64,000 nt of DNA from Flavobacterium davisii. GTDB lineage: Bacteria; Bacteroidota; Bacteroidia; Flavobacteriales; Flavobacteriaceae. Positions 1,916 to 21,516 of the stretch are shown in pieces. A model generated the notes under the pieces. It did no database searches. It was not told the origin of the DNA and saw only the letters and a program-made list of their open reading frames with translations. The translations under genes were made by a program, and so were the position numbers. How positions within the stretch are numbered: the first letter of the stretch is position 1; every line of letters begins with the position of its first letter. The stretch is from NCBI RefSeq assembly GCF_019565505.1, contig NZ_CP067378.1, positions 1,054,001 to 1,118,000 on the forward strand. Reading direction: 5' to 3'.

Positions 1916-3060
1916 TTGGAATCAATTACCTTTACTATACACCAAACCATTTTGGATCTTCCTAACACATGGGATATCATTGCTAAAGAGAATGCTTTTT
2001 TACAAACACCTTATCTATCTGTTTTAGAGGAATCTTCTCCTATTAATATGCAGTGTTTTTACATTGCTATTTATAAAAACAAGGAGCATATTGGTGTTAT
2101 TTTAGCTCAATACATCCAATCACAGCAATTATCTTCTTTTGGTGATCGGGATAAATGCCTTAGAGTTTATACTCGAAATTTTTTACTGCGTCATTTTGCT
2201 TCTAATGTATTATTTATTGGTAATAATATGATTACTGGACAAAATGGGTATGCGTTTAGCAAGGAAATGGATTTTTTTTCATTAGTAAAATTCTTCAAGA
2301 ATGTGCTGAGAATTTAATAACTCATTTAAAAGAGCAGGGAATTACGATACATATTGTTACTTTTAAGGATTATTATGAAGATTTTAGCCATGAGTTAAAA
2401 AATCATTTTTCCAACAATATGTTTGAATTTAATATTCAACCGAATATGATTTTTGAATTAAATCCAGAATGGAAAACGAAAGAGGATTATATGGCTGCTC
2501 TTTCTAAGAAATACCGAGACCAATACAAACGATCTCATAAAAAATTTAACGGTATTATTACTCAAGAATTAGCTTTAGATGAGATTAAAAAACATGAAGA
2601 ACGTATATACGATCTCTATCTTCATGTAGCAAAGAATGCTCCTTTTAATACTTTTTTCTTATCTAAACATCATTTTTATACTTTTAAGAAACAATGTGGT
2701 GATCGTTTTAAACTGATAGGCTATTTTTTAAATGCTAATTTAATTGGTTTTCACACATTGCTTTTAAATGGCGATTTACTGGAAACTTATTTTTTAGGAT
2801 ATGATGAATATGTCCAAAAAGAAAATATGTTGTATTTAAATATGCTGTACAACATGACGGAATTTGGCATTGAAAATAGGTTTACAAAAATTATCTTTGG
2901 TAGAACCGCTTTGGAGATCAAAAGTTCTATAGGCGCAAAACCTGTTATAATGTCTGGTTTTATTTATCATAGAAATAAAATCATCAATCGTTTTATTCCT
3001 AAAATTTTTACTCGTTTAGAGCCTGAAATCTCATGGCAGCCGCGTCATCCTTTTAAATAA
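1916..3060 (+). CDS. GNAT/FemAB-like acyltransferase, frameshifted in a poly-T run
   Basis: The gene reads as two frames, 1916-2317 and 2419-3060. The second frame stays open upstream back to a run of eight T (2272-2279). With nine T the two join into one 381-residue protein. The C-terminal half has the features of BioF2/FemAB-like GNAT proteins: a basic YRDQYKRSHKKF segment, FKLIGYFLNANLIGFHTLLLNG as a core beta-hairpin, and a late FGRTALEIKSSIGAKP motif. Such proteins transfer acyl or aminoacyl groups, often in cell-envelope or lipid modification; the substrate cannot be told. The start used is TTG at 1916, since no ATG precedes it in frame, so the true N-terminus is uncertain. The break is probably a sequencing error, although a slippage-prone tract could also give phase variation. 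Confidence 0.6.
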
Positions 3061-5499: not shown

Positions 5500-5580
5500 G
5501 AAGCTGTCCTAAGAGATCTAAACTTAGGATTGAAGTACAAACTAAATACTAAGTTGTTATTTTTAGGACAGCTTCTTTTT
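5500..5580. terminator. long bidirectional terminator hairpin
   Basis: A 12-bp perfect inverted repeat (5500-5511 with 5564-5575) encloses a second smaller stem (5521-5527 with 5549-5555) and is followed by a T-run on the plus strand. It sits between the convergent DUF983 gene and the last gene of the Pel-like operon. Confidence 0.7.
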
Positions 5581-8500
5581 TAAAATATATACTTATATCC
5601 CAACCCAAAGGTATTAAAATTATATTGAGACTTAAAATTAATATCTGCGGATACTTTTAGATAACTCTTTTTAGCATTTTGTAATGGGAATTCATTCTGA
5701 AATTTATGAAACTACTTTCAAAAGAATCAAAATAATAGGCTCCTGAAGTATGTAATTTAAATTTACTATAATCATCTCCAAAATTAGCTTCTATACCTGC
5801 TCCTCCGAAATATCTATTTTTAATTAGATAAACGGGGCTAACTTTTACTCTTTCACTGATATTAGAAAACTGACAAAAGGCTTCCAAATAGGGAATTACT
5901 TTAAAGTTTTTTTCTCTGTTTGATGCTGTTTTTATTTTCGAACTTAATGTAATATTAACATTTGAAAGTTTAGGGTAATAATCTGTTATAACATAAGAAT
6001 CTACTTCTAAAAATTTAAAATACTTATTATAAGCTCCATTCCATTGTAGTTGATATACATTTTCTTTATAGGCTTCCAAAAAGTTGGCGGGAATATATTC
6101 TAAATTGGTACTTAGATTGTATTTATTAGTTACCATATTAATACCCCCTTTTGCGTTATAATAAAATTTTCCACTCCAATCTTTTTCAAGACCTAATCCA
6201 TAAGTATAAAAAAACTTATTAATCTGATCTGATTGTTTCTTTTTGAACTCATAAGCAAATTCTAATATGGTAGACACATTATTAGATGTTTGATCTACAC
6301 TATATAATTCTTTATGTTTAACAAAAAAGTCATGAGAATTTCGTTTTTTATCATAGTGGCTGTATTTTAGATAATTCTGAAAATTGGTTTTCTTACCTAC
6401 AAAATAGCTCAAAGTTGAATGCGCATCCAGATAATCACCATACAAATCTTTTAGTTTCATTTGAATTTTTTCTTTATTTATAGGTGTGAAAATGGTAGGA
6501 TATTTACGTATTAATTCTTCCTGTGTTTCTATATCAAAGTAAATTATTTGTTCATTTAAATGTTCTTTTATTTCTTCAAATATTTTTTGATCTTTTATTT
6601 GTAGTAATACGCCACAGGCATCATCATATTTTCCTAAAACTTCATAAATCTGAAACATTTTTTGTTTCATCGATTCATCGTTTGGATTTTGGCTTATATA
6701 TTTACGATAGTACTGTTCAAGTTCTACATATTGTCTTAATTCAAACATCCATGACAAACGAGTATCTGCACTTATTAACGATGTAAACTCAGACCAATTG
6801 ATGGCATTTTGATAATCTTCATTTTCGTTAACATAACTCCAACTGATATCTGAAACTAAGTTTTCATTAAAATAAGAGGTAGCAGGGTCTAATGTATTTA
6901 AATATTGAAAAGCTTCCTCTTTTGCATATACGAGGGCGTGATAAACGTATGCTTCTTGATTTTCGCAATTAGGTTCTAATTGAAATATTTTAAACAATAC
7001 TTTTTTTATCTCATCATAATCTTCTGAAGGGGTAATAATCGACAAATATTCTTTTAGTACTGCTAATTTTTCATTATTCCATTGGTATTGATTACATATC
7101 CATTTTGTATGTAGTTCTTCAGATGAATATCCTAATATGTTGGATAATTCAAATGAATAATTAATATTATGTTTAGAAGGATATTTGTCGCAATGTTTTT
7201 CTAGTAATACCCAAACTTCATCACCTTTACCATCCCAAGACATATACGTCGCATATTTATTCCATACGGCATAATTAATTTTAGGTTGACTCAGCATTAA
7301 GGCTAATAATTTTCGTTTTTCTTCTTCGAGTTTTTTAAAATAATCTTCTGCACCTAATTTACCTGATAAAAAAAGTCCTCTATTTTTTTCAAATAGGTTG
7401 TATTCTTCTAGTACTTTATTATAAATTTGTTCCTCATCCATTATTTTTTTCTCTAAGGTAAATGATAATTTATTACCTGAATTAAGGGATACTAATTTAC
7501 CTCCCATAAAATCTGTGATGGTATAATTTTTGGACTGACTGGCTAATTCTTCTTTATTCTTTTGACTTAATTCATCAAAATATACGCCCCAAGTATTTCC
7601 TTTTTCTGTAAACAAATCCGTTTCTTCTCGAACTGTGTATTTTTCACCTATTATTAAGTGTTGGTATTTAGATTCTCTCCATTTCATTACAATAGGAGCT
7701 GCATCTTTTACTGTATAAAACTCACTTTGTGGTTTTATTTCTTTAAATTCTGTTAAGAAATCATCAAAACAACTATATAATGTTTTTTTTCCTTTCTTCC
7801 AATTTAATCCGAGATCATTCCTTAGTTCATAGTTATATTTTTTCTTTTTCTTTTCTTTTGTATTACCTATTTGAAAAACATCATCTGGATGGACAAAATG
7901 AGTCCAAATTCCTGTATATAAATAAGTTGAGAAAATATTATAATATTTTTCATCATTAAAATAAAATCCACTGGACACCCTTGGGTAATCAAATAAATCT
8001 TTGTGATATGGTTCAAAATCAAACTCTCTATCTCCTCCCTCTTTTTTATCTCCTAAATACAAACTCGAAAAATATTTTAGAGAAGGCATTCCTCTTTTTA
8101 ATTCGGCTATACCATAAGAATCTATATAATTGGAAGGGGGTACATAAGTTACCGGAAAATCTCCAAAATCATTAACTAGCCATTTTTTCTTAGTTGCTTT
8201 TAATGAAAAGAATATATCTTCAGGGTCTTTCCATTCTTCTTTTAATAGTGAAAAGTGATTGTAACCATGAAATCCTAACTCATGATTATCATTTAGTAGA
8301 TCATGTGTTAAATAATTGGAGGTTCCTTTTTTAGTATTTCCTTTTTCTTTCATCTTGGCAAAATCCCATTGTTTAAAAGAAAAGGGGGCATGTCTTATAT
8401 CGTCATAATCAAAAGCAAGTAGTGCGGTATATTTAATATTAAATTTTTGGGCTATTTTTTTCATATCAGGCCACCATCTTTTATATACGAATTCATTCAT

Positions 8501-9391
8501 TGTCATATTGTATTCAGACTTGATTGGCTCCTGTTTGGAATCGTATAATGGGGAAGGAAAGTCATCTAAAAAGATGGTACTAGTATTAGCTAAAGGATAG
8601 GGTATGCCTGACAATCCTCGTAAAAGAAAAGCAAATAGTAATCCTCTATCTCTTTTTTCAAATGTTTTAGATGAGTTACAACAAATTACCTTACCCATAC
8701 CTATATTATTTTCTATTAATATAGGCATCGTCATTTGGTTATCTGACCATATCCCTATATTTAGATCTTTTCTAAAATTAGATTTAGCAAAAGCAAAATG
8801 TTTGGTATCACTATATAAGTTTATTTGTCTCTTACCACCTAAAGGAATGGTGTTCAAACAGATACCTTTTGAAACGATATCATAACTCAAATCTGAATCA
8901 TAACGCATTCCCCAAAAGAATATAAAACGTTGGTCATCTCCTATATTAGGAAAAATTAAAGTTCCTCCCGTACTGACAAACTTCAATAAAACAGGTATCG
9001 TTTGATTATTTAATCTTTTTGTATCATTAATAATAAGTACTCTGGCAGAGTTTTCAATTTTTAGTTGTTCATTAAATCTATCTACTATTTTAAAATTAAA
9101 AGGTATTTTGGTATAATCACATAACTTTCTAAAATGCTCATAATAGGTCATGGCCAAATCGTCCTTAGAATCTAATATATATTCTACGATAGGTTTTTTG
9201 CTCAGATTTGACAATTCATACGGCGATAACAAATCTTGCTGTTGCTTATCTCTTAGATAATCATTTTTTAATCTATAAAGGGAATCAAGACTATTACAAC
9301 TAAAGAATAATGAAGAGAATAAGCAAAACACCAAAATTTTAAAAAACCATATTGGAAATTTGACTTGAAAACGGTTTGTTAATAATTTCAT
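5580..9391 (-). CDS. DUF2194 deacetylase-TPR-beta-barrel fusion of a Pel-like cluster
   Basis: The product is about 1270 residues and begins with a lipoprotein-type signal (hydrophobic stretch, then LFFSC). Residues about 50-260 look like the Rossmann-like part of DUF2194. Residues about 270-520 resemble a NodB-like deacetylase, with the metal-ligand candidates FLDDFP and GFHGYNH (Asp-Asp and HxxxH). Residues about 650-1000 are helical, TPR-like. The last 220 residues alternate as beta-strands and end in aromatic Phe, as outer-membrane barrels do. The frame as sequenced stops at 5657. One A missing from a four-base run at 5677-5680 hides the final strand, which ends at 5580. In Pseudomonas, deacetylation (PelA) and TPR-porin export (PelB) are separate proteins; here they appear joined. 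It overlaps the upstream gene by 53 bases. Its role in secreting and deacetylating an exopolysaccharide is inferred. Confidence 0.72.
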
Positions 9392-11280
9392 ATACCTCTA
9401 ATTGATTACTATCAAATATTTTTTTAATTTTTCTCTCTCTCAATTTTAAACGTCTGAATCTGTCTAGTATTTGAACATTTAATTCTTTATATTCGGGATT
9501 ATTGTACTTAAAAACAAAGATACTTGAGGGTAAGATAAATTCTGGATGTTTAAAAAGGAATTTATTTCTTTTTATATTTTTCGCATAAATATAATCAACT
9601 TTCATATAATGCGCGGCAAGAAAATCTTTATAAGGTATAAAATAACGTCTTCCGCTACTTAAATTAAAATATTCATCTTTATTTACTACTGCATAAGTCC
9701 TGTCTAAATAATTTCTTAGAATCATTTCATTAACGCTTAATATATTTTGGTGTAATTTGTTGGTCTCATTCATTGGCAAAAACAACACACTCTTTTGCAA
9801 ATAAGCCAGAATAAAAACAGAAAAAAGAATAACAGATCCTCCTTGGTATATAGGATATCTATTTTTTGAAAAAATTTTAATAAAGTCTAATACAATTGCA
9901 ATATTTATTCCCATCAATATTGGAATAAAAACAGATAAAACTTTAAGTAATAAATCATTATCTATCCATTTGTTATCTATTTGTGTTAATAAATAAATAG
10001 CGGTTACAAACAAAAAGACGAGTACTTTTTTTCGCCATCCTTTTTTAAGAAAATAGCAGACAATAGGTTAAGAATAAAACCAACTACAAATATAATTTGA
10101 TAATAAAATATTAATCTATCTATTTCTATTTTTATAAAAGGATTTGAAAAAGATAATTCTACATCAATTAAGGTTCTTCTTAAAATATTAGAGAAGCTTT
10201 CATGGTGCGTAATTAAAAACGTTTTATAAATAAAAATAATAATAACGAGTGAAAGAATATACATCTGAAGCACTACTAAGGATCTATTTTTTTTGAAATA
10301 AACGATTACCAGAAAAAGTACTAAAAAAGGTAATAATAAAAGGAAGGCGTATAAATCTAATAAGCCTATCGCTATAAAGGCTAATAAGAATTTAAAATAT
10401 TGTTCTGCTTTTGTATAAGGTAATGTCTTTAGTTTAGTCATATAAATAACTAATGGCAATATCAATGTAAAAGAAAGCAAAGGGAACAACTCTGATAAAA
10501 ATTTGTAATATCAGAGGGTAAGAATGTAAATCCTAAGATGTAATAAATTGTTACGAATATTGGTATAATAATCATAGATTTTGTTATTTTCTGGATGAAC
10601 CAAAAAACAACAATAGTCATTGACAATAGTTGAAAAATAGAATATACATAAATGCTTATTTCTATGGAGGAATTCGTTATATGAGAAAGAAAGCTAACAA
10701 AGGCATAAACTCCTTCTGGGTTTATTTCTTCTGTAAACCACTTATTCATATCTTTTGCTTTTACTTTTTCAAGTGTATCAAACCAATTACTCGAAAAAAG
10801 ATAATGATCAAACTTTATAAAATAAAAAGATATAATGCAAATAGAAAATAATAGAAAAAGTAAAGAAGAGATAATATAAACATTTCTTCTTTCTAATTTT
10901 AAATGGGCATTTGATAGAACAACCTTCCAATTAAATTCTTTATTTTCTACTTTTTTTAATACTAAAAGTAAACGTCTTTTAAACTTATTAACGATTATAG
11001 TAGGAAGTATTACTGGATTTCCTATACGCAAATAATCAAATAATCCAACAACCAAAAGTAAGCCTGTTACAACTAGACCATCGTATATTCCTAAATTAAT
11101 TGTTATAAATAGGATGACTATGAGTAAACTGAAATACTCAAAATATTTTCTAATGATGCAGTCTAATAAATAATTAAAATCACGGCGTAACAATACGTAT
11201 TTACGTGTTGCAAATAAAATAATTAAAACAATGATTAAAATTTTTAGTATTCCTACCCCTATGGCTGTGTAAACGTTCAT
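9339..11280 (-). CDS. large polytopic membrane protein of the Pel-like operon
   Basis: Three overlapping frames (11280-10462, 10489-10004, 10013-9339) join into one protein of about 647 residues if one base is restored at the A5 run 10497-10501 and one at a T-run near 10026-10046. It has about a dozen hydrophobic segments, a large loop after the fifth (DHYLFSSNWFDTLEKVKAKD), and a soluble C-terminal domain of about 150 residues. The architecture recalls GT-C type glycosyltransferases or polymerases, but no motif proves it. Position, directly after PelG and the hydrolase and overlapping the deacetylase gene, ties it to polysaccharide assembly. It may replace PelD/PelE, though no GAF, GGDEF or c-di-GMP binding motif is visible. 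I do not recognise a named family. Confidence 0.6.
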
Positions 11281-11281
11281 A

Positions 11282-12064
11282 CTAATCTTTTATTTTTTGC
11301 AAGGATATTTCTGATATACTATAAGTTATATTTTCCGTTTTAATTCTTTTTCTTATTTGTTTAATTTGGGTTTCATCAACTGCATATTCCAATAATAAAG
11401 GTTTTATTTTATATTTATTCATTGCTTTTTTTAGGTTTCCTAAACGTTCTGAAAAACTTTCATTATTTCTTATTAAATATCTTTTTTCTTTAAAATCATA
11501 ATCTGTATATATTGATTCTATTAAGACATAATCTACTTGACCATGCAATAATTTCACTAAATCTAATCCCGCATTTTGCACTAAGACTTTATTAGGATAT
11601 TCTTTTTTAATGGCTCTTACAAATGCAACTAAATCATCTTGAAGATTATACTGTACTCCATGTTCTGTAAAGTTATCTATGTTATCTAAAAAAAGCCCGT
11701 CATATCCCATGTAAAAAATATTTTGTATACGGCTTTTAAGAACTTTTTGAATTTTTGATGATCCAATATCTAGATAATAGCTATTCCAATCTGTGTTTTT
11801 TTCGCTTACAACGCTTCTTAGTAACTTATAATCCCTAGCATCTTCATTAATTTCTCCAAGACTTATATAAGCAACTACTTTTTTATTATTTCTTTTTAAA
11901 TAAGAAACTTCATTGTATGTAAAATGAGCGGACTCTACGATTAATAAATCATAACCTGAAACTTTTGTTACATCAAATTTCCCATAACAGACCAAAAACT
12001 TAATCTTCGAATGAGAATTCAAAGAAAAACAAAGAAACAACATGATAAGCTTAAAATGACGCAT
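11282..12064 (-). CDS. endo-alpha-1,4-polygalactosaminidase-like hydrolase, possible separate gene
   Basis: This is the C-terminal 260 codons of the PelG frame. It would start at an in-frame ATG (12064) with its own signal peptide (MRHFKLIMLFLCFSLNSHS). The body matches the TM1410/GH114 type TIM barrel: YDLLIVESAHF, VVAYISLGEINEDA, GYDGLFLDNIDNF (candidate catalytic Asp in strand 4) and VDYVLIESIYTDY. GH114/GH166 enzymes cleave alpha-1,4-linked galactosamine polymers. In Pseudomonas the equivalent hydrolase is the N-terminal domain of PelA; here it travels with PelG. It probably acts in the periplasm to trim or release the polymer. Whether it is fused or free depends on one base. Confidence 0.65.
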   Translation of the reverse strand: MRHFKLIMLFLCFSLNSHSKIKFLVCYGKFDVTKVSGYDLLIVESAHFTYNEVSYLKRNNKKVVAYISLGEINEDARDYKLLRSVVSEKNTDWNSYYLDIGSSKIQKVLKSRIQNIFYMGYDGLFLDNIDNFTEHGVQYNLQDDLVAFVRAIKKEYPNKVLVQNAGLDLVKLLHGQVDYVLIESIYTDYDFKEKRYLIRNNESFSERLGNLKKAMNKYKIKPLLLEYAVDETQIKQIRKRIKTENITYSISEISLQKIKD

Positions 12065-13642
12065 AATAATAATAATCCATTTTTTAAAAAATTTATATAA
12101 ATGATATGATGTAAATAACATAAAGAATACATTTCCTACTAAAAATCCTACAACACTAAGATCGTAAGAAAAAAATCTACTAAAAAACAGTCCGAAAACT
12201 AAATTAATTACAAAGGAATACAAAATACTTTTAAGAGGAATTTGTGGTTGTCCTAATGTAAAAAAATGCAAAACATTTAGGACGGAACATGAAAAGAAAA
12301 AATACCCCAAAGAACCTATAATGCAAACCTGTCTATTAATACTATTCAATTTTATTTCAAAAAAAGCATCATATCCATGAGGAGAATATAATATAAATAA
12401 TTCTATTATAAAAGCAACACCGCTTGTAATGAGTAATAATAAAAAATTCCCTAAATAATTATCTATAAATCCTTTCCCATAATTTTGTATGCTACTGAGG
12501 GTAACTTCTGACTGTAATCTATCTAATAATTTTGCAAACCGAACGATTCCAAATTCAAACACACCTGCTACTAAAAGGTAAGTAAGTAAGGCTATATCCA
12601 TTCCTATTTCATAATCTTTTTCAAAAAATATGAAATACAAGAATCGTTCTTTTTCGTGTACTGACCAAGCTATAATCCTATCTAAAAAAACATATAAAAA
12701 GAACAACATCCCGTAAAAAAAATACACATAGTTATTATATACAACAAATTCTCTTTTTACATCTTTTACTGTATAACTTGGGTCATACGCGTTATGTTTC
12801 TTGAAAAATCGCACCAAATATAACCATAAAATCAAAACTACAAAGCCTAATCCTATCCAATGGGTAAAATAAATGTACAATGGAGTAAAAACTTTTAATC
12901 CTAATGAAAAAGCGGAACCTACTATTATGACAACTGGAATTATGATTCTTTCTTTAAAAACGTATAAGGGTGCTATCATGAGTAACATAGAACCTATGAA
13001 GAGGGAATATATCCCACTTAAAATAGCCATTTGAAACGCGAAAAATTCTAACAAAAATGATAACAAAACAAATACAGCATTTACAAAAAATAAAAGTTTA
13101 AGACCAAATTTAATTAGATAAACAGTCGTTTGAAAAACCATTTTATTGTTTTTATGATTCCAATAAAAAGATATTTGTTTACTAATAACTGTCACAACTC
13201 CTCCTGTAAGGACTAAACTGGTTATAACTCCAATAACGACAGAAGTAGACTGTAAGATATTAAAATCTGAATATACCCATAAAGAATAACCAAAAACGAC
13301 TACGCAAAAAACCTGAAAAAATATAGGGAAGACATAAAATATTCCTATCAAATAATCTTTAAAAAAATCTTTAATATCTTCTTTTGTCAATTTTATTGAC
13401 ATGATATTACTTTTTTCAAGAGGTATTTTATTGCTATATCTTTCTAAAATCTTTTTATATACTATTTGTGAAAGATTGGATATAGAGGAAAAACCATAAT
13501 CATTCTGCACATCTATTTCTCGTATTCCAAAAGATTCAATTATTGCTTGTGTAACATTTACACTCATAGGCTTACCTACTCGTTTTTGAACTAAAAAAAC
13601 GAGTTGTTCTACTTTATCATTTTTAACCTCTTCTTCCATCAT
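11282..13642 (-). CDS. pelG: PelG-like polysaccharide flippase, read through into a GH114-type hydrolase
   Basis: As sequenced this is one 786-residue frame. Residues 1-90 are soluble. Residues about 90-520 hold a dozen hydrophobic helices in the pattern of PelG (MOP/flippase superfamily), which moves Pel across the inner membrane. From residue 527 the sequence MRHFKLIMLFLCFSL looks like a fresh signal peptide and begins a soluble glycoside-hydrolase domain, listed separately. If the A6 run just before it had seven A, PelG would end in about ten extra residues (MDYYYYYASF) and overlap the hydrolase start. The fusion may therefore be an artefact of a one-base error. The start ATG overlaps the pelF stop by four bases, which suggests translational coupling. 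Confidence 0.75.
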   Translation of the reverse strand: MMEEEVKNDKVEQLVFLVQKRVGKPMSVNVTQAIIESFGIREIDVQNDYGFSSISNLSQIVYKKILERYSNKIPLEKSNIMSIKLTKEDIKDFFKDYLIGIFYVFPIFFQVFCVVVFGYSLWVYSDFNILQSTSVVIGVITSLVLTGGVVTVISKQISFYWNHKNNKMVFQTTVYLIKFGLKLLFFVNAVFVLLSFLLEFFAFQMAILSGIYSLFIGSMLLMIAPLYVFKERIIIPVVIIVGSAFSLGLKVFTPLYIYFTHWIGLGFVVLILWLYLVRFFKKHNAYDPSYTVKDVKREFVVYNNYVYFFYGMLFFLYVFLDRIIAWSVHEKERFLYFIFFEKDYEIGMDIALLTYLLVAGVFEFGIVRFAKLLDRLQSEVTLSSIQNYGKGFIDNYLGNFLLLLITSGVAFIIELFILYSPHGYDAFFEIKLNSINRQVCIIGSLGYFFFSCSVLNVLHFFTLGQPQIPLKSILYSFVINLVFGLFFSRFFSYDLSVVGFLVGNVFFMLFTSYHLYKFFKKWIIIIMRHFKLIMLFLCFSLNSHSKIKFLVCYGKFDVTKVSGYDLLIVESAHFTYNEVSYLKRNNKKVVAYISLGEINEDARDYKLLRSVVSEKNTDWNSYYLDIGSSKIQKVLKSRIQNIFYMGYDGLFLDNIDNFTEHGVQYNLQDDLVAFVRAIKKEYPNKVLVQNAGLDLVKLLHGQVDYVLIESIYTDYDFKEKRYLIRNNESFSERLGNLKKAMNKYKIKPLLLEYAVDETQIKQIRKRIKTENITYSISEISLQKIKD

Positions 13643-15121
13643 CTTCTCATTTGTAATAGTTCTTCGTATATTTCTTCGTATTGATCAATAAACTTATCAA
13701 TTGTAAATAATTCTTCTACTCTTTTTCTACAAGCAATCTTCATTTTTTCTCTTAAAACATGATCTTGTAAAAGTTTTAAAACAGCTTTTCCTATATCATC
13801 TGGATCTTTGGGTTTACATAATATTCCACAATCTTCATTTAAAGCTTCTGCTACTCCTCCTACATCAGTAGATACGACAGGTATACCACAGCTCATTGAT
13901 TCAATAATTGTATAGGGAAATCCTTCAGAAATAGAAGTTAAAATAGAAATATCTCCTTCACAAAATACGACTTCAGGTTTAGGATTAGGTCCTAAAAAGA
14001 AAAAATTCTTTTGAAGCCCTAATTCATCTATCAACTTCAAACATTTTGAAGTATATTCGGGAACAGCATCATTTTCTCCATGTATTCTATACTGCACATT
14101 AGGTAATACATCGGCCACTACTCTACAAGATCTAATCATTGTTAAAATATCTTTTAACTCAAAAATTCGAGCCATTGCAACTACAGTTGGAATACCTTCA
14201 AATTCTTTAGGTTTTTCAAGAGGTTTAAAACGTAAATGATCAATACCATTATAAACTACCCTTAATTTACTTTGTTCTGCTCCATACATTAATTCCCATT
14301 TAAAATTAAATTTATTAACAGACATAATTATATCGGACTGATGGTATGAGGCTCTGGCAGAACATTCGGACAAACGAATTAAAAAATCTTTTAGAAAGTA
14401 GGAGCTATTAGATTGACTAATAGCTAAAATTCTTTCGCGTATATAAACACCATGCTCGGTTAATAGGATAGGAGTACCGTACAGATATTTTTGTATTATA
14501 GCTGGTAAAACAATAAAACTAGAAATTGTTAAGTGTATAATTTCAGTTTTAGGAAAATCAATAGAAATAGGTAATAAAAAATGATAAATCCAACGCATTG
14601 CATAGGTTAAATCTAAAAGAGAAATATCCTTTATACCATAATGTTCCGTATATAACATTAGCTCTTCTTTAAAGACATTCCAAATTTTTTCATTTTTAAA
14701 TACAAGCTTGTAATCATTCTCTTGAAAAAAATACCACATTCCAACAAAAACTTCTATCAATTCATCTGCATCAATATGTTCGGAATAAATACAACCTAAA
14801 AGGCGTTTAAAAATGGGTATAAATTTTTTTTCAAGATCATCTAAAAAAGAAATTCTTTTTTAAAATAAAGTCATAATATGTATCATCAAATCGAATAACT
14901 TCTTTAGGCTCTAATGCGTACCAAATAGGTACCTGAACGACTTCTAAGATAGAGTCATTTAATGAATATTTAGGCTTCGTTTCATAGAAAGCATTTACTG
15001 AATAAATCTTAAAATTAAATTTATTGATTTTATTACATAGTATATGCGCCCAAGTTGACACTCCTCCTCCATGAAAAGGATAAGTTCCCTCTAAAGCCAT
15101 AAGGATACTTGATTTGGACAT
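13639..15121 (-). CDS. pelF: PelF-like GT4 glycosyltransferase
   Basis: This is a cytosolic GT-B glycosyltransferase that would polymerise the Pel-like chain from UDP-sugars. The N-terminus has the PelF hallmark LMALEGTYPFHGGGVSTWAH. The C-terminal half has the GT4 motifs VVYNGID, VVAMARIFELKD, TSISEGFPYTIIESMSCG and PVVSTDVGG. It reads as two frames (15121-14837 and from about 14841 down to 13639). The assembly has one base too many, in the A6 run 14843-14848 or the T6 run 14856-14861; removing it gives 493 residues, close to known PelF. It starts 25 bases below the FAD oxidoreductase gene and overlaps pelG by four bases. Confidence 0.82.
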
Positions 15122-15145: not shown

Positions 15146-16201
15146 CTATGAAAATAATTTTTTTTTACGAAATCTTTCTGTAGAAATATTTCTATCTAAT
15201 TCTATTCCTTTTTCTATAAAATTGAATAAATTATGTGCTAACCAAGGACCTAACATAACTCCTCTAGTACCTAACCCATTTAAAATATGTAATCTTTTAT
15301 GATCTGGATGAGTGCCTACCAAAGGCCTTCTATCTTTTACTGTTGGTCTAATTCCTGCAAAATGTTTAACAATTTCAAAATCACAATCAATCAATTCTTT
15401 CAAATCATTAACTAATTCTATTTTACCTTCTTCTGTGGGAATATCTGTTTTATCGTTCCAATTATATGTAGCTCCTACTTTAAATAAATCATTACCTATT
15501 GGTAAGATGAATATACTTGATTTTAAAATTACATCTAGCTTTAAATCGGGTGCTTTAATTATTAACAACTCTCCCTTTGTCCCATCTAGAGGAAGGTGAT
15601 TAAAATAGGGATTATTTACAAGACCATATCCTTCTGCAAAAACAATATTCTTATATTTTTTTTCTTTATATTCTATAAATTCTTTAGAGAATTCTATAGA
15701 ATTATAATCAAACCGTTCGTTAATAAAACTATTTTCAGTTTTTAAATAAGCAATATAGGCATCTATTAATATAGAAATTTCAACATATCCTGTACATACA
15801 ACTTCTCCAAAACCAAAATTAGAAACGATTGACTCGTATTTTTTATGAATAATTTTTGAAGAAAGAAAGGGGGTTAAATTTGGTTTATCGCAAGCTTGAA
15901 ACCAGTTATTTTGTTCTTCAATTGAAGCAAATTTTCTAAAAACAGGAATAGGAAATACAAAATTTGATTTTAATTTATTTTGAAGTGTATTTAAAAAAGG
16001 TAAACTAAAATCTATTTGTTCTTTTGCTTTCCAAACTTCACTAAATCTTTTTAGGATAACAGGATTATAAAGTCCTCCTGCAATCCTAGAAGAATTGGTA
16101 GAATAATCTTCTAAAATCATTACTGATTTCCCTTCACTTTTTGCTATTTCCGCAAAACTAATACCAGCTATACCTGAACCAATAATTAAATAATCAATCA
16201 T
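15146..16201 (-). CDS. FAD-dependent oxidoreductase (DAO family)
   Basis: The 351-residue protein begins with a dinucleotide-binding motif (YLIIGSGIAGISFAE). It carries DAO-family landmarks: RIAGGLYNPV, GTKGELLIIKAP, KVGATYNWND and the C-terminal FAD segment RPTVKDRRPLVGTHP ... NGLGTRGVMLGPWLA. DAO enzymes oxidise amines or amino acids. The substrate is unknown; no partner gene indicates one. It lies between gldN and pelF on the same strand, with 500 bases of intergenic DNA separating it from gldN. A TATCTTTG element lies five bases before the ATG, so the mRNA could be almost leaderless. The Lys-rich C-terminus follows an A9 run, so the last few residues are uncertain. Confidence 0.8.
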   Translation of the reverse strand: MIDYLIIGSGIAGISFAEIAKSEGKSVMILEDYSTNSSRIAGGLYNPVILKRFSEVWKAKEQIDFSLPFLNTLQNKLKSNFVFPIPVFRKFASIEEQNNWFQACDKPNLTPFLSSKIIHKKYESIVSNFGFGEVVCTGYVEISILIDAYIAYLKTENSFINERFDYNSIEFSKEFIEYKEKKYKNIVFAEGYGLVNNPYFNHLPLDGTKGELLIIKAPDLKLDVILKSSIFILPIGNDLFKVGATYNWNDKTDIPTEEGKIELVNDLKELIDCDFEIVKHFAGIRPTVKDRRPLVGTHPDHKRLHILNGLGTRGVMLGPWLAHNLFNFIEKGIELDRNISTERFRKKKLFS

Positions 16202-16205
16202 AACA

Positions 16206-16213
16206 CAAAGATA
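16206..16213 (-). promoter_or_regulatory. candidate -7 element for the FAD oxidoreductase gene
   Basis: On the minus strand this reads TATCTTTG, an exact TAnnTTTG match. It ends only four bases before the ATG, which implies a near-leaderless transcript. No clear -33 TTG was found at the usual distance. Confidence 0.4.
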
Positions 16214-16373
16214 GAAAAACTCTTACTCTAAGAATACGTTTTCTTTATTTATATATTCTATAGTGATATAACAAATTATTTATAGTGTAACAAATTGTAT
16301 ATAAATTAAATTTAATACCCTAATTATTATTTTAATTCGATTTTCAACACATCATTCTATTGTTGTTTAACTT

Positions 16374-16567
16374 AAATTCTGTATTAGACTTAAACGAAGT
16401 GAATTGATAAAACCAAACTATTTACTTTATTTTTCTTCCAATTCAAGCATGTAATCCCGTTTCAATCTCAAAATAGTTTCTTATTTCTTCTTCTAAAATT
16501 TTTCCGTGAGCACTTAATTTTATTAAAATTTACGTTTCACAACAAAGTCTAATGCTAATCAAGGTTT
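16374..16567. repeat. diverged copy of the MITE-like element
   Basis: This has the same length class and block order as 1589-1783: AAATTCTGTATTAGA at the left end, shared internal blocks such as CTTTATTTTTCTTC, and TCTAATGC near the right end. The terminal repeats have decayed, so this looks like an older copy. Confidence 0.5.
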
Positions 16568-16641
16568 AATATATCCTAAACTTCATGTAATAAAATAAAT
16601 TTAGAAAATTCACATTTACTATCAAGATTTGTCAAAATAAA

Positions 16642-16680
16642 TAAGAAAGACTCCTACTATAAAAGCAGGAGTCTTTCTTA
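16642..16680 (-). terminator. terminator of the gldKLMN operon
   Basis: A stem of about 14 bp with a short loop lies just beyond the gldN stop. On the minus strand it is followed by a T-rich stretch, as expected for a rho-independent terminator. Confidence 0.7.
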
Positions 16681-16700
16681 TGTAATTGGAGAGATTTATA

Positions 16701-17696
16701 TTAATAAGTCCACATATCTTGTTCAAAATCACGGATCTTATCTCTTACTCTTTGTGCTTCTATTAGTTGCATTAAAGAGTTATCTTTCATGTATTTAGAT
16801 ATATCACGGTCATTATAAATATTTTCTTCTTTATAAATAACTGAGTTAAATCTTCTAGAATTTAATATACGATCAAAAGATATAGGCATAGAAGTATTTT
16901 TTTCATTAAAAGCTTTAGCTTCATGCAGTATTTCTCTTGCATTTGGATAAAAAATCCAAAATAAATCGATATAATCCTTTTCTTCTTCTGATTTACCCAT
17001 GGTATAAACATCTGGTATAACTGGACAAATTCCTAAGATTCGGTAACGCAGATCCGATTGTCTTTTATCAAAATACCATAATCCTACTATTTTATAATCA
17101 GAAACATCAATAGAAGCTAGATCTGTTTTATTGATATACTCAGGAGAAATGAATTTTGAAGCAGGAATCACTTTCGTTTCAACACCTACTTTTTTACGTT
17201 TCTTCCCTGTACCTTCATACACTGGAACTTCTACTGTTCTACTTCTATAAGCATTGATATCTGAGTTCATCTCTTCACGACCTGCATCAGTAGTGTCAAT
17301 TTTAGTAAGTGAAGCCGCAATATCCTTTAATGTCTTCTTCTCTCTAAAATAGCTATCACCATACACTTCGGTAATTTTACCTGATTTTATTCCTTTTACT
17401 AAAACATCATAAAGTGATCGACGATCAGAACCTATACTTATTGTATCAATCGGATAATACAAAGAAAAGTTAATACGCTCATCTAAGTCAATTATTTCCC
17501 ATACTTTTTTGGACATCAAGATATCTCTGTCGTCTACATAACCATAGTCTAAAGGTTTGTCATTATCCTTAGTTTGTTGAGCTGCAGATTTCAAACCAAT
17601 TTCTTGAGGTTTTTTTGCATTCAACAAATTTGATTGAGCGAAAGTTGATATACTTCCACTAACAAAAAGTGTTAATACTAAATTTCTCCAATTCAT
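16701..17696 (-). CDS. gldN: gliding motility protein GldN
   Basis: The 331-residue protein has an N-terminal signal peptide (LVLTLFVSGSISTFAQ). It carries the GldN core: DDRDILMSKKVWEIIDL, then ERINFSLYYPID, and YKIVGLWYFDKRQSDLRYRI followed by GICPV. GldN is a periplasmic component of the type IX secretion/gliding motor complex and forms a ring with the lipoprotein GldK near the outer membrane. It is the last gene of gldK-gldL-gldM-gldN, 48 bases after the repaired gldM stop, and is followed by a terminator. Length and motifs are normal. Confidence 0.93.
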   Translation of the reverse strand: MNWRNLVLTLFVSGSISTFAQSNLLNAKKPQEIGLKSAAQQTKDNDKPLDYGYVDDRDILMSKKVWEIIDLDERINFSLYYPIDTISIGSDRRSLYDVLVKGIKSGKITEVYGDSYFREKKTLKDIAASLTKIDTTDAGREEMNSDINAYRSRTVEVPVYEGTGKKRKKVGVETKVIPASKFISPEYINKTDLASIDVSDYKIVGLWYFDKRQSDLRYRILGICPVIPDVYTMGKSEEEKDYIDLFWIFYPNAREILHEAKAFNEKNTSMPISFDRILNSRRFNSVIYKEENIYNDRDISKYMKDNSLMQLIEAQRVRDKIRDFEQDMWTY

Positions 17697-17744
17697 ACTT
17701 TTATATTTGAGGCGTTTAAAAATTAAACGAAATTTATGGAATTA

Positions 17745-19272
17745 TTATTGTACTTCATAAGTACAAGATGATACACGTTTAGCAACTTGTTCTATTCCTG
17801 AAAAAGATGCTTTTATTTCAGAAATCACAACTACATCACCTCTTTGTGCTTTTTGAATAGCACCTTTGCTCTAGCATCCATTTTGTTACCTGTAACTACT
17901 ATTGTTGGTTGACCGGGAACTTTAACATTAAATTGTGTAACGCGTACATCTACTGGAAAATCAAAATCTTCCATTTCTGCAGTTACAGTACACACTTCTA
18001 GGTTAGATTTAGAACCTTTTGCTGAAATTTCCCCACGAACCTTTCCTGTAGGGGCTGGTAATCCTTTTATACGGAATTCTTTCTTATCGGAAACAACTTT
18101 ACCATCTGGTAATTTAGCGTTTACATTAATCATTAATGATGTACCGGGACCTGGTTTTAAAATATATTTACCATTTCCTGTTTTGGTCATACACGGAGCC
18201 GATGCGTTTACATTGTTGTCAGCTACACCTGCAAAAGAAATTGAAATTGGATTGGGTACACCACGATATACCACATTCATCTTATCTGCAGAAATAGTAG
18301 CTGAATTTGGACGAGGTACTACTACATAAGTTCCAGCAAATTTCAACGGAATTGTCTTACCATCTTCTAAGAATGTAAATTGTCCATTGATATTTTGCTC
18401 TCCTACTCCACCTGCAGTGGTTGAAATAACAGCTTGTCCATTTTCTAAACGCCCGGTCCTTGAAAAGAGGTTGGCTTTGTATTTTCATCATAACGACCTA
18501 ATACAACCTTTCCTTTTACTTGCTCTCCTTGGAAATACGCGTTCTTTTCTAATACTACAATTGCTTGGTAGTTGCTATAAGAAGCCGCTTGTACAGCAGC
18601 TTTACCTAAAGCCGCACTAATTACATCTGATTCCGCTTTTTTAGCATCGTTTTGCCAAGCTGACAACTTAGCTAAAGATGCGATTGATGGAAAGCCTTTA
18701 AAATGATAATTTAAAAACTTATCTTTTGACCCGTCTGTTTTTACTACATCCTTAGTATCAAATTTACTTAAAACTTCGTTTAATATATGTGCATATTTTT
18801 TCTCAGAACCTAATGCACTTTTTAAATCTGATCTATATGTTTCAATAGCATCAATAACTGATTTACCTTTAGCGGTGTAGTTTTCTCCTTGAAACCATGA
18901 TTCATCTAGTTTATCACCTTTATCCATAGACTCATAAGGTAATTTACCATTTTCTAGTTCAACATCTTTTGTAAGATCTGCCTTTATACCATCTATGAAT
19001 GAATAAAACTTATTTGAAGCAGCTTCTACTTTATGTGCTGTTGCTGCTGCCATTGCAAATTCTCCTTTAGCTTCAGCTGCTTTTTGATCTAAAGAAGCTA
19101 ACATTTGCTGATTAGTAGATTTTGCTGATTGATTAGACCCTTCAAACCTTTCGTTCATTAAACCAAATGCTGAAAGAACCTCTTTTGACATATTCATTGC
19201 CAACATAGCGACGAAAACCAAATACATAAGGTTCACCATCTTCTGTCTAGGACTTAAATTACCTCCTGCCAT
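17745..19272 (-). CDS. gldM: gliding motility protein GldM, two frameshifts
   Basis: GldM forms the periplasmic shaft of the proton-powered motor with GldL in the type IX secretion system. The N-terminus has the single inner-membrane helix (MVNLMYLVFVAMLAMNMS). The periplasmic domains follow, including YFQGEQVKGKVVLGRYDEN and YVVVPRPNSATISADKMNVVYRG. As sequenced, the frame breaks twice: at CCC 18452-18454 (one base short) and at TTT 17865-17867 (one base short). Restoring both gives 509 residues, ending in SSCTYEVQ, which is full family length. Since gliding needs GldM, errors in the sequence are more likely than real mutations, unless the strain is non-motile. Confidence 0.9.
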
Positions 19273-19322
19273 TCTTTTAAAATTTTTTAGTTATTAAATA
19301 ATTATATAAAAAGACAAGAAGA

Positions 19323-19958
19323 TTATCCTCTATTACTCATAGCAGACAACATACCACCATATACGCTGTTTAGTGTAGCGATATTTGTTGTCATAGATTG
19401 CATTTGTTCTTTTAATTTGGCTGCGTTTTCTGCAATTTCTTGATTTGCTTCTGCATTACGTGAAGCACTTTCTAATTGAGATTTGTACAAGTTATTTAAA
19501 GATGCCATATTATTGGCTGCTGCTAACATTTCGTCTGCATATTTCTTTTGTCCTGCAATAGCATCTACAGTCGGTGCCATATTTTTAGCTGCTCCTTCAA
19601 AATTTTTGATACTATTTCCTAAACTAGCCATTAATTCACCATCAATTTTGGCTTCCTTCAACATAGCGTCTAATTTTTGAGACAGTACTCCTTGTGCTTC
19701 AACTGGCTCTTCTTTTCTTGCTTTTTTAGCAGTTGGCTGCCCTCCTGCTAATTCAGGATAAACTAAAGTCCAATCCAACTCTTGAGCAGGTGTTTCAAAT
19801 GCAGATAAACCGAAAATTAAAGCTTCTGTTCCTAAACCAGCAATAAGCATAGCACTTGCTCCTGGCCAGTGCATTAATTTAAATAAAGCTCCAACGATTA
19901 CTACTGCCGCACCAAACCCGTATGCGAAGTTCATTACTTTAGGTGATAAAATTGCCAT
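19323..19958 (-). CDS. gldL: gliding motility protein GldL
   Basis: The 211-residue inner-membrane motor protein has two transmembrane helices near the N-terminus (about residues 8-26 and 35-52, FAYGFGAAVVIVGALFKLMH and ASAMLIAGLGTEALIFGLSA). The Glu of GTEALIF, in the second helix, matches the residue thought to carry protons. A long cytosolic coiled-coil tail follows. With GldM it forms the rotary motor that powers gliding and type IX secretion. It sits 50 bases before gldM and 76 bases after gldK. Confidence 0.93.
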   Translation of the reverse strand: MAILSPKVMNFAYGFGAAVVIVGALFKLMHWPGASAMLIAGLGTEALIFGLSAFETPAQELDWTLVYPELAGGQPTAKKARKEEPVEAQGVLSQKLDAMLKEAKIDGELMASLGNSIKNFEGAAKNMAPTVDAIAGQKKYADEMLAAANNMASLNNLYKSQLESASRNAEANQEIAENAAKLKEQMQSMTTNIATLNSVYGGMLSAMSNRG

Positions 19959-20034
19959 AATAATAAATTTTAGTTAAGTTAATAATTTATGTTTGGTATA
20001 TAAAAAAATAGAATTTAAAAATCTTTAATTTTGA

Positions 20035-21411
20035 TTATTTTCCTGTTGATTCTGTTCCCATATAATCTTGGATAGTACGGAAACCTATATAACTTCTAGC
20101 TGAATCTGCGTATTCAAAATCACGAGTACTAACTTGTAAAAAGTATGCTACATCTTTCCAAGAACCTCCACGTGTTACTTTACGCATATTTTTTTGTTCA
20201 GAAACATTTGGATTCATTGTTGATAAGAATTCATAGGCTGTAGGATCGTAAGATGAATCTGTCCACTCTGCTACGTTACCTGCCATATTATACAATCCAT
20301 AATCATTAGGTTCATAAGCATCTACCTCAACGGTATATAGTGCCTGATCAGCTGCATAGTCTCCTCTAGAAGGTTTAAAATTAGCTAAATAACAACCTCT
20401 ATCATTTTTAGCATAAGGACCTCCCCAAGGGTAAGTACCTGATTCTAGACCTCCACGTGCTGCATATTCCCACTCTGCTTCTGTTGGCAAACGATAAGAA
20501 CTTACATTGTCCTTATGCGATCTTTTTCTTGCCCCATTATGATATAAAGTTCTCCATGCACAAAATGCCTTTGCTTGTTTCCATGAAACACCTACTACTG
20601 GATAATCACCATAAGCTTGATGCCAAAAATAATCATTATGCATAGGTTCATTATAAGAGTAAGCAAAATCTTTAATCCATACTGTTGTATCTGGATAAAT
20701 AGTTACTTCTTCTTGCTTAATAAACTCTTTACGCTTACCCACTTTCGCTTTGGCAGCTGCTTGGATATCCATCCAAGTGTATTTAAATTTTAAATTTTCA
20801 GAACGCAATGTTCTTAAACCATTGTAAGCTTCTGCTGCAGGAATGTACATAGAATCCATTACTTCTGTATAATACGCATCAGGATACTCGCTTGTTTTCC
20901 ACTTGATTGGAATTTTTTTATTTAATTTTCTTCCTGAATATGGATCATCTCCTGTACCAATACTATTGTAATTATCATACATATACTTGTCGTAAACTGA
21001 CATTTTAGTTGTATCAGCATCTAGGAACGCATAATCTGCTATGCTACCACCTTTTGATGATTTCTTTCCATCATTTTTTTGACCTAACTCATCAGCCGCT
21101 ATTGCCAACTTAGTTCTAACAATAGAATCTCTCACCCAATGCACGAATTGGCGATACTCACTATTTGATATCTCCGTTTCATCCATATAAAATGAACGTA
21201 CCGTTACTGTTTTTGTTGGCGCGTCTTGAATGTTAGCTAAATCATCATCTGATTTACCCATGATAAAAGAACCCCCCGGAACCAATGTCATCCCATAAGG
21301 TTTTTCAGGATGCCAAGCTTTCCCCTTGACACCAACAAGCTGGCCATTGTCTTTTGAACCGCAGCTGTATAAAAACATAACAAGTACTGCTGATAAAATG
21401 AACTTCTTCAT
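20035..21411 (-). CDS. gldK: gliding motility lipoprotein GldK
   Basis: This is an outer-membrane lipoprotein of the GldK/PorK family with an FGE-sulfatase (SUMF1) fold. It has a lipoprotein signal MKKFILSAVLVMFLYSCG. The SUMF1 landmarks are GMTLVPGGSFIMGKSDDD, DETEISNSEYRQFV, RLPTEAEWEYAARGG, NVAEWTDSSYD and RGGSWKD. I chose the ATG at 21411 rather than 21438 because the signal peptide begins there. GldK forms the ring with GldN that connects the motor to the outer membrane. It is the first gene of the gldKLMN operon. Confidence 0.93.
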   Translation of the reverse strand: MKKFILSAVLVMFLYSCGSKDNGQLVGVKGKAWHPEKPYGMTLVPGGSFIMGKSDDDLANIQDAPTKTVTVRSFYMDETEISNSEYRQFVHWVRDSIVRTKLAIAADELGQKNDGKKSSKGGSIADYAFLDADTTKMSVYDKYMYDNYNSIGTGDDPYSGRKLNKKIPIKWKTSEYPDAYYTEVMDSMYIPAAEAYNGLRTLRSENLKFKYTWMDIQAAAKAKVGKRKEFIKQEEVTIYPDTTVWIKDFAYSYNEPMHNDYFWHQAYGDYPVVGVSWKQAKAFCAWRTLYHNGARKRSHKDNVSSYRLPTEAEWEYAARGGLESGTYPWGGPYAKNDRGCYLANFKPSRGDYAADQALYTVEVDAYEPNDYGLYNMAGNVAEWTDSSYDPTAYEFLSTMNPNVSEQKNMRKVTRGGSWKDVAYFLQVSTRDFEYADSARSYIGFRTIQDYMGTESTGK

Positions 21412-21516
21412 ATAAATTTGGGTTATGTATGTATTCACTTCTACTTTAAGAATGTAAACCTATTTATTTATTTCCTAATTACCAAAAAAACGTTAAAAAA
21501 CTTACAAAAAAAAATT

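Follow-up and report, generated by a model that had tools for sequence, protein, structure and literature searches.

A compact, probably Pel-type exopolysaccharide operon with a deacetylase-porin fusion in Flavobacterium davisii and other Bacteroidota

Organization of the locus

The analyzed DNA, hereafter the window, is a stretch of 64,000 nucleotides from Flavobacterium davisii (contig NZ_CP067378.1, positions 1,054,001 to 1,118,000), in which a probable Pel-type exopolysaccharide operon occupies positions 15121 to 5580 of the minus strand. According to the list of open reading frames (ORFs), transcription proceeds from pelF through pelG and a hydrolase gene to a gene for a polytopic membrane protein and, as the fifth, one for a very large protein. 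The locus was compared with the best 80 of 138 relatives (80-locus set), and counts out of 71, 73 or 75 given below refer to this set.

In the window, pelF is divided over two ORFs and the membrane protein gene over three, while the frame of the large protein breaks near its C-terminus and that of pelG near its 3' end. The five genes of F. columnare (locus L031) are all intact in an ORF comparison and encode 494, 530, 260, 647 and 1,262 amino acids (aa), and of 12 F. columnare ORFs in this comparison, 11 find a counterpart in the window; in F. covae (locus L033) four of the five operon genes are broken. These two species are the nearest relatives in the 80-locus set over the deacetylase region of the large protein (88% for F. 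columnare and 91% for F. covae), which places the window in or near the columnaris group. Two genes outside the operon (1916-3060 and 17831-19272), one of which we take to be gldM and the other FemAB-like, are likewise in pieces in the window and uninterrupted in F. columnare, and the window assembly, with a listed completeness of 86.99%, seems rich in frame errors. Because unrelated neighbours are broken too, the assembly is incomplete and the F. columnare operon is intact, the frame breaks in the window look like sequence errors rather than decay.

PelF and PelG

The pelF gene (13639..15121, minus strand; ORFs 14837-15121 and 13639-14760) encodes a GT4 glycosyltransferase with the DUF3492 and Glycos_transf_1 domains, as assigned by Pfam and NCBIfam. 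The larger of its two pieces scored 153.6 bits against the NCBIfam PelF model (cut-off 100), and the EX7E glutamates were kept in 71/71 relatives. The pelG-like gene for a polysaccharide exporter (12051..13642, minus strand) is more divergent. Its product reached 15.0 bits with PF16933 and that of F. columnare 21.7 bits, both below the Pfam cut-off of 29. An alignment and scan of 40 of the 71 intact PelG copies gave PF16933 matches in 13 at E ≤ 0.01 (best 1.4e-9). The window protein is 34-38% identical to relatives with an unbroken gene, which are 527-538 aa long. A PF16933 search of the F. davisii genome itself gave no match although the PelG-like gene is present, so the model is too insensitive here. 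Both proteins had been named in a first-pass annotation of the window; the identification of PelF holds, and the second protein is PelG-like with a weak Pfam score.

Further pel genes in the genome were sought with PF11997 and a PelG profile (A4), which matched this locus only; PF09960 added a single 19.3-bit fragment at C1:728335. A second pel set was rejected on these searches: no second PelF or PelG locus was found elsewhere in the genome, where no search with models of PelA or PelB was made.

A separate hydrolase of the PelA type

The hydrolase gene (11282..12064, minus strand) had been read in the first-pass annotation as a GH114-type domain that moved from PelA to PelG. This fusion is an artefact of the reading frame. 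In the 75 loci of the 80-locus set that hold both genes, pelG and the hydrolase gene are separate ORFs without exception, and in 68 of 73 loci the start codon of the hydrolase lies in a 14-nucleotide overlap with pelG. The window keeps this element, from ATG to TAA, at 12064-12051, and it is followed by a sequence that resembles a signal peptide (MRHFKLIMLFLCFSLNSHS). The single window ORF 11282-13642, into which the frame break carries pelG, aligned with residues 1-521 of 530 of F. columnare PelG and with residues 1-260 of 260 of the F. columnare hydrolase, which maps into this ORF from its own first residue.

The hydrolase matched Pfam GH114 with an E-value of 2.3e-19. Among solved structures, that of the PelA hydrolase domain came closest (5tcb with E 4.8e-17; also 5tsy and 9cgy), and GH114 enzymes ranked well below it in the same search (9ep5 with 4.7e-5, and lower). 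The glutamate at which 5tcb and 5tsy differ was kept in 75/75 hydrolases. The literature classes the PelA hydrolase as an endo-alpha-1,4-N-acetylgalactosaminidase. Several marine carriers with Maribacter-like loci have, adjoining pelF, a further protein whose C-terminal part is a partial GH114 domain (for instance L022:13352-14347); the window has an oxidoreductase gene at this place.

A deacetylase domain joined to a predicted outer membrane barrel

The last gene (5580..9391, minus strand) is read from ORF 5657-9391, which encodes 1,244 aa, followed by another frame down to 5580; the intact F. columnare copy has 1,262 aa. The first-pass annotation gave an operon from 5580 to 15121 ending in a protein of about 1270 residues, of which the coordinates stand, but the length does not, as a frame change after 5657 is needed to reach it. 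Residues 75-524 matched DUF2194 (Pfam, E 2e-68), and the sole solved relative at E ≤ 0.1 was 9ZAU (E 4e-38), in an alignment that begins at window residue 134, inside the CBM114 domain. According to PMC13254593, 9ZAU is PelADA of Bacillus cereus ATCC 10987, the founding member of CE26 with CBM114, which deacetylates synthetic oligomers of alpha-1,4-linked N-acetylgalactosamine (GalNAc) in vitro. The same paper assigns the metal ligands to D263, H350, H354 and H488 and the base to D262, and names R458 and D491 as well. Their window equivalents are D277, H375, H379 and H501 (metal ligands), D276 (base), R471 and D504, and all seven residues are identical in the window and in 73/73 intact copies. 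PelADA has a single inner membrane helix as its anchor. The N-terminus of the window protein resembles a lipoprotein signal, with Cys32 in a lipobox-like context kept in 72/73 copies, suggesting that the large protein is probably lipid-anchored and periplasmic.

To model the remainder, residues 531-1262 of the F. columnare protein were used together with 73 sequences (pLDDT 85.5, pTM 0.56); given the low pTM, the angle between solenoid and barrel in this model is unreliable. Besides an alpha/beta part, the model contained a solenoid of helices (model residues 123-454) and ∼15 long strands (457-731, assigned with DSSP). In a structure comparison with the PDB, only three proteins exceeded a Z-score of 15: PgaA (4y25; Z 20.8, root-mean-square deviation (rmsd) 2.9, 252 aligned residues), PelB (9h80; Z 20.4, rmsd 4.9, 310 aligned residues) and BcsC (Z 20.2). 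The next row was OmpG with Z 14.6. The matches of the solenoid (Z about 12-13) were unrelated tetratricopeptide repeat (TPR) proteins, mostly with a large rmsd. The barrel of PelB is described as having 16 strands. On the basis of the model, the C-terminal part is predicted to be a TPR-like solenoid followed by an exopolysaccharide outer membrane barrel. The merger of a deacetylase, TPR repeats and a barrel in one protein, which the first-pass annotation had proposed, is supported by the DUF2194 and 9ZAU homology together with the modelled solenoid and barrel, the folds that structure prediction was expected to reveal. The fusion would make the contact between deacetylase and exporter permanent. 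PelC is described as essential in the Pel literature, and BcsC and PgaA as needing no PelC-like lipoprotein; by analogy with these two exporters, the deacetylase-porin may need none either.

A membrane protein with a predicted GT-C fold

The gene for the polytopic membrane protein of ∼650 aa (9339..11280, minus strand) is read as three ORFs in the window (10462-11280, 10004-10489 and 9339-10013) and as one gene of 647 aa in F. columnare. Its presence in the set had been recognized before, and it had been called unknown. Pfam and NCBIfam gave no match or rows at chance level (Cortexin 0.028, NVEALA 0.058), and sequence and profile searches of solved structures returned no rows. The fold emerged from a model of the 647-aa F. 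columnare copy, built with 76 sequences (pLDDT 85.7, pTM 0.88). Foldseek listed three rows at E ≤ 0.001, namely AftA (9.1e-5), DPY19 and a subunit of the oligosaccharyltransferase. In the structure comparison, the model matched STT3 (Z 18.9, 438 aligned residues, rmsd 9.4), ArnT (17.6, rmsd 7.2), ALG12 (16.4), the core of Pmt4 (16.0, 347 aligned residues, rmsd 4.2) and AftA (15.6); helical models often reach Z 13-14 through arrangement alone, a level that these top rows exceed. The rmsd was 7-10 Å over the whole protein and 4.2-4.5 Å over ∼350 core residues (Pmt4 and Pmt1-Pmt2). All rows down to Z 9.3 were GT-C proteins, counting three glycosylphosphatidylinositol transamidase rows (Z 9.9-12.6, chain U where named) of a chain that we presume to be GT-C-like, and the first plainly different protein appeared at Z 8.9. 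We infer from the model that the membrane protein belongs to the GT-C superfamily, in the class of STT3, AglB, ArnT and AftA.

Directly after the first GT-C core helix (residues 131-155), the model places D158, encoded in the window at 10807..10809 (minus strand). This residue is Asp in 72/76 relatives, W166, D441, Y559 and D563 are invariant (76/76), and H546 is kept in 75/76. GT-C glycosyltransferases have a catalytic acidic residue in their first extracytoplasmic loop, and from its position in the model, D158 is a candidate for such a residue.

Distribution among Bacteroidota

The first-pass annotation had described a rearranged operon in a Flavobacteriaceae genome. The operon was confirmed, but this description was too narrow, as the arrangement is a recurring layout of the Bacteroidota carriers. 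The exact order of pelF, pelG, hydrolase, membrane protein and fusion was found in 63/80 loci; the other 17 are cut by a contig end (11), have split frames (2) or contain extra copies (4). An intact fused ORF is missing from seven of the 80 loci, in two ORFs in L033 and L060 and apparently cut by a contig end in L042, L050, L051, L096 and L109. Among 199 Flavobacteriaceae genomes, 10 (F. davisii included) matched the large protein, and eight of the nine other carriers have the full gene order. The ninth (G075) has a fusion-length DUF2194 gene at L030:3130-7077 without pelF or pelG nearby, in which the histidines among the deacetylase metal ligands are replaced.

Across 395 Bacteroidota genomes, strong DUF2194 matches (E 4e-57 or better) were present in 27, each within a reading frame 1,246-1,349 codons long. 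Exactly these 27 genomes also have the GT-C-fold protein. From 46 genomes with a DUF2194 match, 19 were dropped, as their sole match was a fragment of 17.7-30.8 bits; the fragment of G385 lies 0.4 bits over the curated cut-off (28/395 genomes are over it), and its region shows no cluster. There was no stand-alone PelADA among the 27 strong matches, for most of which the barrel is deduced from the frame length, and the fusion of locus L173 gave no barrel match in BLAST. The layout recurs in Flavobacteriales, Roseivirga and Balneolales, and among its carriers are marine genera such as Maribacter and Tenacibaculum as well as the fish pathogens of the columnaris group. A one-off rearrangement is ruled out by the recurrence across Flavobacteriaceae, the 80-locus set and the 395-genome sample. 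The pairwise distances of the five proteins correlated with 0.84-0.97 over 67 loci, values that include the effect of shared ancestry.

Two contigs from metagenome bins labelled Limnohabitans (L032) and Bifidobacterium breve (L051) carry the Bacteroidota-type cluster and are probably mis-binned. In the window, the operon adjoins a region (15146-21438) with the oxidoreductase gene upstream of pelF and genes that we take to belong to gliding and type IX secretion (gldN, gldM, gldL and gldK). The oxidoreductase and ORFs that are presumably gldN- and gldM-like flank the F. columnare copy as well.

Cyclic di-GMP control

No GGDEF domain (PF00990) was found in the F. davisii genome, which is 86.99% complete, or in any of 40 other carriers, which were 40 of the genomes of the 80-locus set; the same model matched 8 of 14 control genomes. 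In the wider sample, GGDEF proteins occurred in 203/395 Bacteroidota genomes and in 3 of the 27 carriers (G209, G214 and G431; Fisher p 1e-5, uncorrected for kinship), and their presence clearly follows lineage. Given the absence of GGDEF from the genome and from 40/40 other carriers, control through PelD by cyclic di-GMP (c-di-GMP) looks excluded here. None of the five operon genes is a PelD gene, all five being accounted for by other families or by fold. A search of the genome with PF16963 (PelD_GGDEF) gave no match, which proves nothing alone since the controls were silent too. There is no unassigned gene left in the operon for PelE and no PelC gene among the five, and the genome was not searched for either of them. 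These results agree with the first-pass annotation, which could not recognize PelD, PelE or PelC, and they give its suggestion that the c-di-GMP switch is absent stronger support than it had.

An extra gene lies between pelG and the hydrolase gene in three of four Balneolales loci (L102:5556-7112, L105:5371-6972 and L108:5365-6990; not L110) and also at L171:8684-10315, L172:7295-8926 and L174:8635-10278. It carries an HD domain in L102, L105 and L108, which were scanned, and the copies of L171, L172 and L174 match that of L102. Its motifs, which we take to be HD-GYP-like, are altered at the end in L102, L105, L108, L171 and L174 and canonical in L173. The genomes of L102, L105 and L108 have no GGDEF in the PF00990 search, and the loci with the extra HD-domain gene also carry a second, shorter PelF-like protein. 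In L173 (G431), the order is hydrolase, two PelF-like genes, pelG, GT-C protein, canonical HD-GYP-like protein and fusion-length DUF2194 gene; this genome has a GGDEF protein.

Proposed system and alternatives

Pel, a partly deacetylated alpha-1,4-GalNAc polymer, is a model for the biofilm matrix under c-di-GMP control. The five genes are likely to constitute a compact, c-di-GMP-independent Pel-type exopolysaccharide system. What the data show are the content and order of the genes, their co-occurrence and homology, the conserved catalytic residues and the predicted folds. In the pathway proposed here, in which the identity of the polymer, the order of steps, the cellular locations and the role of the GT-C-fold protein are all deduced, PelF would polymerize an N-acetylhexosamine, probably GalNAc, in the cytoplasm, and PelG would move the chain across the inner membrane. 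The PelADA-like domain of the probably lipid-anchored periplasmic protein would then partly de-N-acetylate the chain, which would cross the outer membrane by way of the TPR solenoid and barrel of the same protein. Periplasmic chains may be trimmed or cleared by the separate hydrolase of the PelA type. The GT-C-fold protein would most likely act at the periplasmic face of the inner membrane, where it may decorate the chain from a polyprenyl-phosphate sugar or hold the inner membrane complex in place of PelD and PelE. A more specific version of this pathway has two stages: PelF makes the backbone, the GT-C-fold protein carries out an obligatory periplasmic decoration or capping from a lipid-linked sugar, and the lipid-anchored deacetylase-porin then edits and exports the chain, without c-di-GMP or PelC. 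This version is less likely than not. If it is true, the use of two kinds of donor would make the pathway a hybrid of synthase-dependent and lipid-linked polysaccharide assembly.

Several observations weigh against a Pel-type assignment in this form. PelG is divergent, with its 15.0 bits against a cut-off of 29 and a PF16933 model that is silent in its own genome. The sequence of PelF does not reveal its donor sugar. The fusion protein of L030 (G075) occurs without pelF or pelG nearby and has lost its metal-ligand histidines. The presence of GGDEF tracks lineage, and three of the 27 carriers among the 395 Bacteroidota genomes possess a GGDEF protein. Finally, a GT-C fold is no proof of catalysis, and D158 is absent in 4/76 relatives.

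In a rather unlikely alternative, the GT-C-fold protein has no catalytic activity and serves as a scaffold in the inner membrane complex in place of PelD and PelE. It is alone in the set without a Pel counterpart, it co-occurs with the deacetylase in 27/27 genomes, and its D158 is not universal (72/76); against an idle role, polar residues that would be useful to an enzyme are kept, with D158 itself in most relatives, D441 and D563 in 76/76 and H546 in 75/76.

It is unlikely that the product is a related, non-Pel N-acetylhexosamine polymer, for which the recruited PelF- and PelG-like proteins would use a different donor sugar, with a branched polymer or heteropolymer built by the GT-C-fold protein. 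The distance of PelG from the Pfam model would fit this explanation, as would the 27/27 co-occurrence with the deacetylase of a GT-C-fold protein that the consulted descriptions of Pel operons do not mention. Two enzymes argue for Pel instead: the hydrolase has its closest relative in the hydrolase domain of PelA, described as acting on alpha-1,4-linked GalNAc, and the deacetylase, with its catalytic residues intact, is closest to B. cereus PelADA, which is active on alpha-1,4-GalNAc oligomers in vitro according to the text cited above.

A decaying pseudo-operon in this strain would account for the frame breaks in pelF, pelG, the GT-C gene and the fusion gene and for those in F. covae L033, but it is improbable in view of the two broken unrelated neighbours, the 86.99% completeness of the assembly and the five intact genes of F. 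columnare L031. A hydrolase truly fused to PelG, as the single ORF 11282-13642 would have it, is most improbable, with 0/75 loci fused and, at the 14-nucleotide overlap typical of the relatives, a separate start for the hydrolase that is followed by a signal-like peptide.

If the Pel-type reading is true, the operon, with no GGDEF found and no adjoining PelC gene, would show which parts of the Pel machine are essential, and the deacetylase built into the exporter would show how deacetylation is coupled to secretion. The GT-C-fold component, which to our knowledge has no counterpart in any described Pel operon, suggests a periplasmic step of sugar transfer or a scaffold.

Comparison with known systems

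No description of this Bacteroidota layout was found in the titles and abstract openings of open-licence papers, the nearest being a Fusobacterium nucleatum transcriptome (PMC9848294). There, strain TDC 100 has a GH114-type hydrolase, pelF, pelG and a DUF2194 gene, as here, among CS401_RS04325-04355, with hypothetical proteins as neighbours; these genes all stand in one table of down-regulated genes, and their numbering suggests that they form one cluster, in an order partly inferred from the locus tags. Pel operons in Thermotogae and other groups, with fission of pelB and rearrangement of pelA, are reported in PMC7112194, and the word Bacteroidetes is absent from its main text.

The GT-C-fold protein shares with the GT-C glycosyltransferases (STT3/AglB/PglB, ArnT, AftA and DPY19) a transmembrane core with a C-terminal soluble domain; unlike them, it sits in a Pel-type operon, and none of the solved chains matches it in sequence. 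The fusion protein shares with the exporters PgaA and BcsC a TPR solenoid that leads into a barrel for exopolysaccharides (4y25, 6tzk and 9b8a), whereas those exporters serve other polymers, and we know of no deacetylase joined to either.

With pelDEADAFG of B. cereus ATCC 10987, as described in PMC7112168 and PMC13254593, the operon shares PelF, a PelG-like exporter, a deacetylase of the PelADA type (CE26/CBM114 in B. cereus) and a hydrolase on a separate gene. It differs in that the lipoprotein-like deacetylase continues into the TPR solenoid and barrel, a GT-C-fold protein is added, PelD and PelE are not among the five genes, and no GGDEF was found in the genome. With pelABCDEFG of Pseudomonas aeruginosa, it shares PelF and PelG, a PelA-type hydrolase, a deacetylase, and TPR repeats with a barrel as in PelB (9h80). 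In contrast to that system, its operon has no PelC, PelD or PelE and contains the added GT-C-fold protein, and the fusion partner of its deacetylase, which is of the PelADA type, is the porin and not the hydrolase.

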